From a virus: 41,253 bases of DNA. The position numbers and the translations under genes are program-made. The stretch covers positions 1-41,253 of IMG/VR virus record IMGVR_UViG_3300013010_000028, one strand, 5' to 3'. The stretch's first letter is position 1; each line of letters starts with the position of its first letter. Below are positions 9,869 to 13,700 of the stretch, one piece after another. The notes beneath the pieces are model-generated. The model saw nothing but the letters and a program-made list of their open reading frames with translations. It did not search any database and was not told where the DNA came from.

Positions 9869-11947
9869 TTATTTTAAAGCATTCGTTAATTCGTTGACAC
9901 TAGTTATTAACTTATCAATTCCTGCATTATGTGCCTGTACCACATCACTATTCCAATAGTTGCCAGGTAAATATGAATCATCTTGCTTCTTTTCACCCAA
10001 AGCGTGTATAATTGCTCTTGCAAATTTTTCTGGATCGTCTGATATATCTAATTGTTTTTCCATTTCTTGCATCGCTTTAATAACATCTAGTGGATCAGTC
10101 AGTTGATCAGCCAGCGATCTTATTGCCTGTAAGCCCTCTAATTTCACTACATTATTTGTATCCCTGGCTGAAGGGGTCCCACCTTGACCAATTATAGTTT
10201 GATTCTTTAGTTCCAGGGCCCCTGAGACATCAGTGCTTTCTTCCGCATCGAACCCCATGTTGGGATTTGTCAAGGTCAGATCTGCGAATTGTACTCCGCC
10301 AGCCGCTGTCATATTCACTACGGTACGAGCAGCTAATTCGAATTTTCTCACCTCACCCCGAGCCGAAGCTGTCCCAGCACCTAAATTTGCAACTTCGCGT
10401 GTTAATATTAATGATGATTGTACCAGCTGGTTCAATGAGCGACTTAAATCGGTTGCATTTAACACTAGTGTCTCATTTGCCTCTGATACAATCTTAGAAT
10501 ATCTTTCTGCTTCTCTATAATTAATTATCGCTTTATCTTCTTTAGATAACGGTACTTCGCCCTTGTCAGCATCCCCAACTGTCTGTCTCATTGCTGCAAT
10601 CTGCGTAATGAGAGCCTGTATCATACCTTCATTTAAATTTACTAATCCTTTGTTGTCTCTTGCAAATTGTATTATCGCATCAAATTGTGGTCCCATGGTT
10701 GCATATAATGCATTTGCAGCTTCTGGTCCTTGTGTTCTGGCAGTCTCTGCCATTTGTGTTATAAGGGGTAAAAGTTTTTGACCAATTACGTCACCTTGTA
10801 ACTGCTGCGCAACATCGGTCTGTAAAAAGTCCTGTGTACTACCTGCTGCCATGGCAGTTGCAATACCCGTACCCAATATAGTTCCCTCTCCGCCAAAACG
10901 GCCAACCATTGCTTCTACATTTTTTCGCATTTCAGGTTCCATTAGTGCCAGTTGCGATGCAAATTGATCTTGTTTTAACGTGTCAGCAATCATATTAGCA
11001 GCATCTTGTAGATTTATTTTCATAACATTTGAAGTGGAAACCACTGTGTCCATAAAATTATCCATGCCCATACGCATCTGATTATCTGACAATTTATCCA
11101 ATTGCCCAATTGAACGTACAGATTCCATATATGATCCTGCAATTTCAGCAACCTCACTAAATTCCATACCAAATCGTCGCATCATGTCGGAATTACCTTC
11201 GCCTGATTTTGCCAAACGATTCGCAAACTCCATAGATGCCTTAACCCCAGTAATACCGACTGCTTGAGAAAATTGCCTTGTGAATTCTGCTGCTTCTCCA
11301 AAGGTAAAATTAGAACGTGATATAGTTTTTGATAATCCTATTAAACCCGCTCCTGCAGAATCCATACCTGCAAGTAGACCAGATTGTCTCATTTCTTGTG
11401 CCATGTCGTACCTAGATGTGGCACCTTCAATTGTTTTAGAATTTGCAGTATTAATAAAGCCCACAGCCGTTCCAATCGTAGCAGCCAAAGTTTTTATATC
11501 ACCCCATAACCCACCAGCCTGGTGCGCAGAAGATTCTATGTTAGCACGTAAATTTGCTTCAGCAGTTGTCAATCCTAGCTTTTCATACTCTGCTATACGA
11601 TTGGCAACATCTAATTGTTTTTTAGCAGTTCTATTTGTATCACTTAATATATTAGTTAGTGATGCAAGAAATCCAGTTTGTTTTGTAACAATACTTGCAT
11701 TGGTTGCACTACCTTTTTTTACTGCATCCGCAGTTTCTTTTGTACTGATTACTAGATCGGCAAGTAAATTTGATGATTTAGTTTCGCCGGTTGACAGTTT
11801 AGATAATACAGTCATTATTTGTCTGTTAACTTGGACATTACTACTAAATCCAGAATTTAGAGCATTTAATACCTGCTGCTGTGTTGCTTCGTTGCTCCAC
11901 TCTGGTACGCCAGCCCCCAAACCTGCAATATATACATCTTCTGCCAT
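9869..11947 (-). CDS. 29: Tape measure protein (gp29-like)
   Basis: 692 aa, almost all alpha-helical and rich in Ala, Gln, Thr and Asn, with long heptad-like regions and a short hydrophobic segment ('LAATIGTAVGFINTA', ~155-170). These are the usual features of a tape measure protein, which spans the tail tube lumen and fixes tail length. T4 gp29 has 590 aa. The best context evidence is the adjacent, divergently transcribed gp26/gp51 gene, since tape measures normally sit beside their chaperones. The ribosome binding site is GAGAGAAAG before the ATG, and a late-type box lies about 79 nt upstream. No enzymatic domain is visible. The assignment rests on composition, length and position, not on a specific motif. 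Confidence 0.7.
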   Translation of the reverse strand: MAEDVYIAGLGAGVPEWSNEATQQQVLNALNSGFSSNVQVNRQIMTVLSKLSTGETKSSNLLADLVISTKETADAVKKGSATNASIVTKQTGFLASLTNILSDTNRTAKKQLDVANRIAEYEKLGLTTAEANLRANIESSAHQAGGLWGDIKTLAATIGTAVGFINTANSKTIEGATSRYDMAQEMRQSGLLAGMDSAGAGLIGLSKTISRSNFTFGEAAEFTRQFSQAVGITGVKASMEFANRLAKSGEGNSDMMRRFGMEFSEVAEIAGSYMESVRSIGQLDKLSDNQMRMGMDNFMDTVVSTSNVMKINLQDAANMIADTLKQDQFASQLALMEPEMRKNVEAMVGRFGGEGTILGTGIATAMAAGSTQDFLQTDVAQQLQGDVIGQKLLPLITQMAETARTQGPEAANALYATMGPQFDAIIQFARDNKGLVNLNEGMIQALITQIAAMRQTVGDADKGEVPLSKEDKAIINYREAERYSKIVSEANETLVLNATDLSRSLNQLVQSSLILTREVANLGAGTASARGEVRKFELAARTVVNMTAAGGVQFADLTLTNPNMGFDAEESTDVSGALELKNQTIIGQGGTPSARDTNNVVKLEGLQAIRSLADQLTDPLDVIKAMQEMEKQLDISDDPEKFARAIIHALGEKKQDDSYLPGNYWNSDVVQAHNAGIDKLITSVNELTNALK

Positions 11948-12051: not shown

Positions 12052-12891
12052 ATGAATCAAGAAAATCCATTAAATAAATATTTTAGAAAGCCAAAGATAT
12101 ATGTTACATTACCAACCGGTGGCAGATTTAATCCAGAATTAAAAACGACATTACTTGATGAAGTAGGGGTAAGTGCAATGTCTGCAATTGATGAAATTTC
12201 ACTAAGAAATCCAGAATCACTACTTAATGGAGAAGCGATTAAAAGTGTTATCGAAAGTTGTGTGCCGACGGTTGGCGATCCTATGAAATTATGTAATATT
12301 GACATAGAAGCATTATTCTTGGCGATCCAATATGCTACGTATGGAAATGATCTAACACACGAACATACGTGCGAAAACTGTAAAGAAATAGCAGAATACA
12401 AAATAGACGTTAATGAAATACTCAATCGTTTTCCCGACATAGACTATATAGATCCAATTCTTTTTGAAGATGTGAATATTCACATTAGACCACCAACGTT
12501 AGAAAATGTAACACGTATGGCTCTAATAGAGTTAGAACAGAAAAAAATCATACAAAATTTGCAAAAAGTAGATGATGATACTTCAGACATGGATATTGCA
12601 AGTAAATTTTATACAAGTTTTAAAAAAATCGCAACATTCAATGTAGATATGCTTGCAAATGCCATTAGTAGAATCGAATCACCTGAGGCTGTAGTAACAG
12701 ATACTATGATGATATCCGAGTTTCTACAAAATGTACCTACAACTGTAGTACATCAATTGAATCGTTCAATTGAAAAGATCGCTGAAAAACCCAAAGACAT
12801 AAACAAAATGCAATTCAAATGCGAAGGTTGCGGTAATGTAGATGATATTTATATGGAGATTAATCCTATAAATTTTTTAGAAGCTGGCTAG
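12052..12891 (+). CDS. 26: Baseplate hub / tape-measure chaperone (gp26-like), zero-frame product
   Basis: 279 aa from the ATG at 12052, chosen because AAAGGAAA lies at the right distance; an upstream ATG at 11989 has no such site. The N-terminus 'NPLNKYFRKPKIYVTLPTGG' is the characteristic start of T4-type gp26 proteins in marine phages. Two Cys pairs, 'CENC' (~104-107) and 'CEGC' (~261-264), could form a zinc ribbon. T4 gp26 (208 aa) works with gp51, gp28 and gp29 in hub and tape-measure assembly. The zero frame ends only four codons after a TTTTTTA slippery heptamer, and the gp51 homologue continues in the -1 frame. A late-type box lies upstream, and the gene diverges from the tape measure. 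Confidence 0.88.
   Translation: MNQENPLNKYFRKPKIYVTLPTGGRFNPELKTTLLDEVGVSAMSAIDEISLRNPESLLNGEAIKSVIESCVPTVGDPMKLCNIDIEALFLAIQYATYGNDLTHEHTCENCKEIAEYKIDVNEILNRFPDIDYIDPILFEDVNIHIRPPTLENVTRMALIELEQKKIIQNLQKVDDDTSDMDIASKFYTSFKKIATFNVDMLANAISRIESPEAVVTDTMMISEFLQNVPTTVVHQLNRSIEKIAEKPKDINKMQFKCEGCGNVDDIYMEINPINFLEAG
12873..12879 (+). promoter_or_regulatory. Programmed -1 frameshift site T TTT TTA joining gp26 to gp51
   Basis: In the gp26 frame the codons are aaT TTT TTA, a canonical X XXY YYZ heptamer; the sequence UUUUUUA is also used by HIV-1 gag-pol. The zero-frame stop TAG follows after GAA GCT GGC. Slipping back one base enters the gp51 frame at AGA (12879). A Shine-Dalgarno-like GGAG lies 14 nt upstream (12855-12858), as at dnaX. 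A 6-bp stem with one G.U pair can form just downstream (12883-12888 with 12901-12906). Confidence 0.82.
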
Positions 12892-13109
12892 TATCAGCAA
12901 GTCAGCAGGAAATTATAGAAAAATCAAAAAAATACGAAATAGAGCTTGACAAGTTTCATAAAGATATGTTAAAGTTAACATGGTATATGAGAGGGGGAGT
13001 AAGTATATCAGAATTATATGATATGGAAGCGACCCATATATCTCATATTACATCAATTGTTGAAAGCAATTTCGAACTTAGTAAACAAGCAGGAGTGCCA
13101 ATACTATAA
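12879..13109 (+). CDS. 51: gp51-like domain, translated only by frameshifting from gp26
   Basis: 76 codons in the -1 frame relative to gp26. The sequence includes 'LDKFHKDMLKLTWYMRGG', 'SISELYDM' and a C-terminal 'SKQAGVPIL'. The Phe-His-x-Asp-Met...Trp-Tyr-Met-Arg-Gly-Gly motif is what I recognise as gp51, the T4 baseplate hub assembly factor. No ATG, GTG or TTG exists in this frame between the upstream stop (12863-12865) and the internal Met at 12966, which would cut off the conserved start. The natural product is therefore a gp26-gp51 fusion of about 352 aa. The layout copies the G/G-T tape-measure chaperones of lambda-like phages, where a small fraction of ribosomes shift frame. The partner tape measure lies next door. 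Confidence 0.82.
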   Translation, partial: RSWLVSASQQEIIEKSKKYEIELDKFHKDMLKLTWYMRGGVSISELYDMEATHISHITSIVESNFELSKQAGVPIL

Positions 13110-13176: not shown

Positions 13177-13215
13177 CTAATATAAATCTAATATAAATCT
13201 AATATAAATCTAATA
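13177..13215 (+). repeat. Three tandem 11-bp units CTAATATAAAT
   Basis: Three perfect copies (13177-13187, 13188-13198, 13199-13209) plus a six-base remnant. Each unit with the next base contains TATAAATC, one base from the late promoter box. They lie just downstream of the sigma70-type start site. They may be leftover late-promoter copies or protein-binding sites. Confidence 0.8.
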
Positions 13216-13425: not shown

Positions 13426-13453
13426 GTGCATTTTGCACACGTGCATTTTGCAC
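13426..13453 (+). repeat. Two tandem identical hairpins GTGCATTTTGCAC
   Basis: Two identical 13-nt units, 13426-13438 and 13441-13453, are separated by AC. Each folds into a 5-bp stem with a 3-nt loop. They form part of the candidate structured RNA. Twin identical hairpins may bind a protein dimer or stack in the RNA fold. Confidence 0.75.
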
Positions 13454-13700
13454 AAACCGATGATAGGCTATTATAGCACTATCGACTTCATAATTCAATT
13501 TTTAATGTGTATAAATTATGAGGTGCCGTTGATCCGAAAGGAGCAATATCGACTTATGGGGGAATCGTCAACCGACCCCGCTGTATCTGGCAGCTAGTTC
13601 GAACACATTAGGTACAAACGATGGACAGATATTATCTGTACAAAAATTTTTACAATTGTCCTGGCAACAGGGCAATTGTGGGCACTTCACAGGACAGAAT

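Follow-up and report, generated by a model that had tools for sequence, protein, structure and literature searches.

A gp26-like gene is followed by an overlapping −1 reading frame

We analyzed a 41,253-nt stretch of viral DNA, the whole of which is referred to here as the window (IMG/VR record IMGVR_UViG_3300013010_000028). The following features lie at the locus:

9869-11947, minus strand: divergent tape-measure-like gene of 692 aa, the likely client of the chaperone (label derived from a profile)
12052-12891, plus strand: gp26-like gene, putative short form (TAC-N) of a tail assembly chaperone, based on PF12322, phrog_150, and an AlphaFold model
12855-12858, plus strand: SD-like GGAG, upstream of both heptamers at a distance of 11 nt from A_AAT_TTT and 14 nt from T_TTT_TTA
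12864-13109, plus strand: −1 frame ORF, whose post-slip residues (12879-13106) would be the C-terminal domain (TAC-C) of the long form
12870-12876, plus strand: slippery heptamer 1, A_AAT_TTT, zero frame, overlapping heptamer 2 and starting 3 nt upstream of it
12873-12879, plus strand: slippery heptamer 2, T_TTT_TTA, zero frame, four codons before the gp26-like stop
12883-12906, plus strand: hairpin with a 7-bp stem (GCUGGCU/AGUCAGC), 3 nt past heptamer 2 and 6 nt past heptamer 1

The gp26-like ORF starts with ATG at 12052, ends with TAG at 12889-12891, and encodes 279 aa; its 3′ end reads ATA AAT TTT TTA GAA GCT GGC TAG. The protein matches PF12322 with an E value of 1.2e-13 (51.8 bits; Pfam gathering cut-off 24.5) and phrog_150, "baseplate hub," with an E value of 6.2e-18. 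Its AlphaFold model has a mean pLDDT of 85.9; a fold search of the PDB with this model returned nothing at E 0.001 or better. Sequence searches of solved structures for this locus gave best E values of 0.13 and 0.15.

A slip into the −1 frame adds 76 residues (RSWLVSAS...GVPIL), giving a long product of 352 aa in all. A preliminary description of this DNA, made from the letters and their open reading frames, had proposed an extension of this length, and the frame is indeed open from 12864 to 13109. The modeled extension is all-helical, with a mean pLDDT of 92.1. In comparisons with relatives, the changes in the −1 frame past the gp26 stop at codon positions 1/2/3 numbered 2/2/9 (L011), 5/3/9 (L012), 5/4/11 (L014), 21/14/35 (L025), and 29/17/32 (L033), a pattern that is protein-like between near relatives and weaker at distance (L033). 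The AT-rich stretch after the −1 ORF contains two perfect tandem repeats, an 11-bp unit, CTAATATAAAT, in 3.5 copies at 13177-13215 and a 15-bp unit, GTGCATTTTGCACAC, in 1.9 copies at 13426-13454. No tRNA genes and no Rfam families at gathering score were detected in the window.

An in-frame slippery heptamer is conserved at the end of gp26-like genes

The comparison was based on 178 gp26-like loci, chosen by similarity to the gp26 protein and not by the junction: 162 from IMG/VR, 15 from phage records, of which two are uncultured, and that of the window. Two of the searches for relatives kept the best 80 of 579 and the best 80 of 598 confirmed, and the counts hold for the loci kept. Dropping L075 and L174, in which the gene runs off the contig, left 176 loci with 162 distinct junctions in 109 clusters. 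L001 (the window itself), L017 (T4), and L100 (RB43) were outside the junction count by design, and R10Z, ACP17, LPCS28, Aeromonas P19, S-PM2, and CBA120 were read additionally, outside the locus and cluster counts.

As the preliminary description stated, the gp26 frame of the window stops four codons past T_TTT_TTA, and this heptamer lies in the zero frame. Beyond that description, we identified the second in-frame heptamer, A_AAT_TTT, that overlaps it. Alignment of the junction in related phages, which had been proposed as a check, revealed that an in-frame heptamer of the form XXXTTTN is conserved near the gene end in 174 of the 176 loci and 107 of the 109 clusters. T_TTT_TT[C/A/T] is present in 158 of the 176 loci, with T_TTT_TTA in 7, all from the window's own lineage, and T_TTT_TTC or T_TTT_TTT in 151 further loci; the other form, A_AAT_TTT without T_TTT_TTx, is present in 16. 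Among phages with T_TTT_TTC are S-SM2, S-PM2, Vibrio phage R10Z, LPCS28, Aeromonas P19, and ACP17. Elsewhere in the same genes, the heptamer occurs at 27 of 26,345 other codon pairs, and T_TTT_TTx at only 9 of 134 other Phe-(Phe/Leu) pairs. Both A_AAT_TTT and T_TTT_TT[C/A] are found in 33/109 clusters, always with a spacing of 3 nt, while 9/107 clusters have A_AAT_TTT alone, including L015, L018, and L019, which are relatives of the window at 61-67% protein identity.

The preliminary description had also considered a sequencing error in the T run. We rejected this explanation, as the gene and the −1 ORF are identical in L010, even though an ungapped comparison of the 6,837-base stretch of L010 with the window finds agreement at only 6,221 positions in the same register, and the T run is kept in five relatives at 91% protein identity.

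Start codons in the −1 frame of the window and its relatives

In the window, the −1 frame has no ATG, GTG, or TTG before its conserved part, in agreement with the preliminary description; the first such codon, an ATG at 12966, already lies within the FHKDM motif, and based on the AlphaFold model a product started there would lack helix 1 and most of helix 2. Up to and including the heptamer, ATG, GTG, and TTG are absent from the −1 frame in 101/107 clusters, and a start is present in 6/107. In the stretch that begins where the −1 frame opens and reaches 60 nt beyond the gp26 stop, there is an ATG in 61/106 clusters, only GTG or TTG in 19, and none of the three in 26; here, as in the folding test below, n is 106 because the −1 ORF of one of the 107 clusters runs off the contig. 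The start positions differ from locus to locus, whereas the heptamer is retained. Homologues with a normal start codon for the gp51 part and no slip site, which the preliminary description had counted against its proposal, exist in T4 but in 0/107 of the clusters with a heptamer.

Downstream RNA structure and an upstream SD-like motif

The stem in the window pairs 12883-12889 with 12900-12906 and has a folding energy of −11.4 kcal/mol (z −3.22 against dinucleotide shuffles); the preliminary description had named a possible downstream stem of 6 rather than 7 bp. Because the distance of the 3′ arm differs among the lineages listed, we used a synonymous null in place of formal covariation. In this null, the −1 frame is recoded with each locus's own codon usage, and the 48 nt past the heptamer are folded. 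Against this stricter null, the stem of the window, evaluated via the identical L010 junction, was borderline (z −1.81; fraction 0.065). Across clusters, the mean z was −2.21 (n = 106), with 59% at 0.05 or less, under a null that disregards the zero-frame overlap past the heptamer (median 3 nt, up to 63). The corresponding values for the window's group were −1.96 (n = 11 clusters) and 36%. In control windows, z was −0.23 at 60 nt further on (n = 106) and −0.25 inside gp26 (490 windows). These data support that the downstream RNA structure is stronger than the protein sequence explains and is apparently selected at the group level.

The GGAG that the preliminary description placed 14 nt upstream of T_TTT_TTA was recovered at 12855-12858. 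To count such motifs, we defined SD-like 4-mers as GGAG, AGGA, or GAGG located 7-16 nt upstream of the T_TTT_TTx register and compared them with a synonymous null (300 simulations). For all clusters, we obtained 48/107 against 26.3 expected (maximum 37). Counting from the first-listed heptamer, which is a GGGTTTx or AAATTTA further upstream in 8 clusters, gave 49/107 against 24.9 (maximum 34). Because most matches come from cyanophage clusters, we split the groups, and the enrichment stands in each of the three: 8/11 against 1.5 expected (maximum 4) in the window's group, 35/41 against 24.0 (maximum 31) in cyanophage clusters, and 5/55 against 0.8 (maximum 4) in the other clusters. From these sequence counts, GGAG appears to be a selected feature of the window's group and not a general one. 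Both elements that the preliminary description named as possible stimulators therefore look selected (z −2.21 for the structure; 8/11 against 1.5 for the motif), and they may act on shifting.

Exceptions and public annotations

The 2 exceptions among the 109 clusters are Listeria phage LIS04 (L094, 2480-3208 and after) and the uncultured LR756508 (L098, 1983-2747 and after), both of which lack the usual heptamer and have the +1 frame open. The C-terminal domain is found in this +1 frame with profile E values of 8.5e-5 in LR756508 and 0.0023 at best in LIS04, and these two phages may use a +1 or −2 shift. In CBA120 (L181, 1507-2313 and after), the domain lies in the −1 frame (E 1.1e-5), and the short form ends without a canonical heptamer.

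In public annotations, the C-terminal domain has no CDS in RaK2, PA5oct, CBA120 (L181), LPCS28 (L184), and Aeromonas P19 (L185), and it is annotated with a late start in Atu_ph07 (L003, 2439-2561) and S-SM2 (L093, 3085-3258).

The long form is the probable counterpart of T4 gp51

The PF12322 profile is matched over its full length by both T4 gp26 (8.8e-64) and T4 gp51 (3.9e-52), and gp51 consists of the PF12322 part and a further C-terminal part, in which residues 147-246 match phrog_634, "baseplate hub assembly catalyst." Since both span PF12322 and gp51 has the extra C terminus, the frameshift product as a whole would be the gp51 equivalent; on this sequence comparison, T4 gp26 corresponds to the short form and the whole of T4 gp51 to the long form. 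T4 thus shares with the window the PF12322 family and a short and a long version but encodes them in two separate, divergently transcribed genes, consistent with the separate genes 26 and 51 that the preliminary description gave for the T4 lineage. In the Straboviridae phages R10Z (L182), LPCS28 (L184), and Aeromonas P19 (L185), the gp26-like gene ends with T_TTT_TTC and has a −1 extension. Because these three keep the frameshift design, the T4 arrangement may be confined to part of the Straboviridae.

The preliminary description had equated the −1 domain itself with gp51. This direct identification was not supported: the window's own −1 domain has no Pfam or PHROG match, and when the first 11 −1 domains were compared with T4 gp51 by hhalign, the probability was 1.7%. 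Fold searches of the PDB and BFVD with the model of the −1 domain returned no match at E 0.001 or better. Only 1 of 38 −1 domain members matches phrog_634, and it is not that of the window. With profile E values set for 10,000 sequences, an HMM of the window-type and jumbo-type −1 domains gave E values of 32 (T4) and 0.043 (RB43) against the gp51 C terminus, while an HMM of the −1 domains of cyanophages and four other T4-like phages gave 3.2e-5 (T4) and 1.9e-7 (RB43). In hhalign, the cyanophage group aligns with the window/jumbo group across 34 columns at a probability of 88%, and 2/65 other −1 domains are detected by the cyanophage profile at E 0.01 or better. What stands of the proposal is an indirect link, in which the window-type domain would be connected through the cyanophage −1 domains to the C-terminal part of gp51; gp51 is not a free small domain. 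According to a passage in PMC3037559, cyanophage gp51 has about 20% of the length of other gp51 proteins and resembles their C terminus, and a frameshifted C-terminal domain annotated alone would look like this.

A long divergent gene precedes the locus

We surveyed the upstream neighbor in those IMG/VR clusters of the range L010-L092 whose sequence extends 2 kb or more upstream (51 clusters). A divergent ORF of at least 300 aa is present in 50 of them, and the counterparts are 682-970 aa long. A profile of these neighbors matches those of Phosso (5.9e-31), 121Q (597; 3.8e-24), and RaK2 (ORF088, annotated as tape-measure-like; 1.8e-20), with the strong matches carrying high composition bias; the match to the gene after the S-SM2 chaperone is weak (E 1.6e-4). 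Neither T4 gp29 (0.53) nor the annotated tape measure of LIS04 (3.2), whose gene directly follows that of the chaperone, is matched by the profile. Searched alone, the window's neighbor detects 12/50 other divergent neighbors (phmmer) and has no match in the phage collection by tblastn; BLASTP with part of the Phosso neighbor gave an E value of 0.003. The gene at 9869-11947 is likely a tape measure, a label that comes from this profile. Where the preliminary description placed the tape measure gene, next door, there is a long, divergent, and conserved neighbor.

Discussion

These analyses make it highly probable that −1 ribosomal frameshifting produces a short and a long form of a tail assembly chaperone at this locus, as in lambda G/GT. 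Given the heptamer in 107/109 clusters and the lack of a usable start, slippage at the T run, as first proposed in the preliminary description, is the likeliest reading, and the resemblance to the lambda design that it noted is supported by short and long reading frames with a common N-terminal part. Most ribosomes would stop at the TAG at 12889 and release the 279-aa short form. A fraction would slip back one base on AAATTTTTTA and make the 352-aa long form with its helical C-terminal domain; the hairpin, 3-6 nt downstream, and the GGAG, 11-14 nt upstream, would presumably help. On the model of lambda gpG/gpGT, the tape measure protein would be coated by a large number of short forms and a small number of long ones, which would recruit tube subunits and afterward dissociate.

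Several public annotations imply that the −1 ORF is instead a separate small gene, re-initiated after the gp26 stop; Phosso, 121Q, S-SM2, and S-PM2, among others, annotate it as its own CDS, and the ATG found near the gp26 stop in 61/106 clusters would suit such a gene. We regard this as very unlikely, given that in 101/107 clusters the −1 frame offers no start up to and including the heptamer, that the first start in the window, at 12966, would yield a protein without helix 1 and most of helix 2, and that start positions vary between loci while the heptamer is constant. Still more improbable is slippage of RNA polymerase on the T run, by which transcripts with an extra base would give the long form without a ribosomal shift. 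In favor of this, the window has a run of T6 at the junction, but the run is only T5 in the loci L018, L019, and L069, which have A_AAT_TTT only, and the in-frame pattern of the heptamer, the SD-like enrichment, and the selected downstream structure point to the ribosome.

Frameshifting could also be real and its products be structural hub subunits, as in the older T4 label, and not chaperones. The gene is called "baseplate hub" in many of the listed phage records, and PMC3004832 cites, in one passage, genetic work that places gp26 in the hub. The same source, however, lists both T4 gp26 and gp51 as hub assembly chaperones and gp51 as absent from the final particle, and the occurrence of two forms next to a long, divergent gene that is probably a tape measure also argues against structural subunits; we therefore consider this reading improbable, if less so than the two above, and retain the chaperone pair as the preferred one.

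A more tentative proposal, to which we give somewhat less than an even chance, is that AAATTTTTT[A/C] is a composite signal in which two overlapping slip sites share one common hairpin. In this phage group, ribosomes could then shift both at Asn-Phe, where A_AAT_TTT is separated from the stem by 6 nt, and at Phe-Leu or Phe-Phe, where T_TTT_TTx is separated from it by 3 nt, and lineages would have switched the site while keeping the long chaperone. If this is true, two junction peptides, ending in INFFR and INFLR, are expected in this phage. The paired slip sites would also provide a natural series in which the ratio of short to long form could be related to the heptamer, its spacing, the hairpin, and the SD-like motif.

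T4-like tail chaperone genes, short and long, are said to have been identified in 2022 by Vladimirov, Gautam and Davidson, with frameshifting reportedly kept in several T4-like groups and T4 itself reportedly using genes 26 and 51. A passage in PMC10885494, citing Vladimirov, Gautam and Davidson (Virology 2022, 566:9-15), states that some T4-like phages use separate short and long genes instead of frameshifting, and one in PMC12846349, citing Vladimirov et al., refers to poly-T stretches as known −1 signals in T4-like TAC-N genes. The preliminary description knew of no published frameshift for gp26 and gp51; judging by these citing passages, the kind is already in print. As characterized there, the T4-like tail chaperones share with the window the short and long forms and the poly-T −1 signals, while the window differs in its uncultured lineage and in a T_TTT_TTA that overlaps A_AAT_TTT. 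Our literature search found no title on the window's lineage, and a paper search on the two heptamers in tail-assembly frameshifting listed one paper, a 2016 review, without those DNA forms. A frameshifted T4-like tail chaperone is thus known in kind, and the details that may be fresh are the paired slip sites and the hairpin.

The slip site of lambda gpG/gpGT differs from that of the window. As described in part of PMC5009743, the lambda G/GT design is widely conserved in long-tailed phages "except T4," and it has in common with the window a short chaperone with a −1 extension that is read only after a shift close to where the first ORF ends; in contrast, the lambda protein belongs to another family, with Cys-x-x-Cys, and the tape-measure-like gene of the window is on the opposite strand. 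The Adele-type phages (Vandenendeviridae), in the account given in a section of PMC12846349, have a GTTTTT −1 frameshift and so share the poly-T slip at the end of TAC-N, and their downstream ORF, too, generally appears in annotations as a gene of its own. They belong to a different phage family, and the likeness noted here is one of design.

Taken together, the sequence evidence suggests that cyanophages, jumbo phages, and T4-like relatives that are uncultured widely possess a frameshifted tail chaperone. T4, with its separate genes 26 and 51, would represent a different solution to the same need, and the long form of the chaperone would be missing or wrongly started in public annotations.
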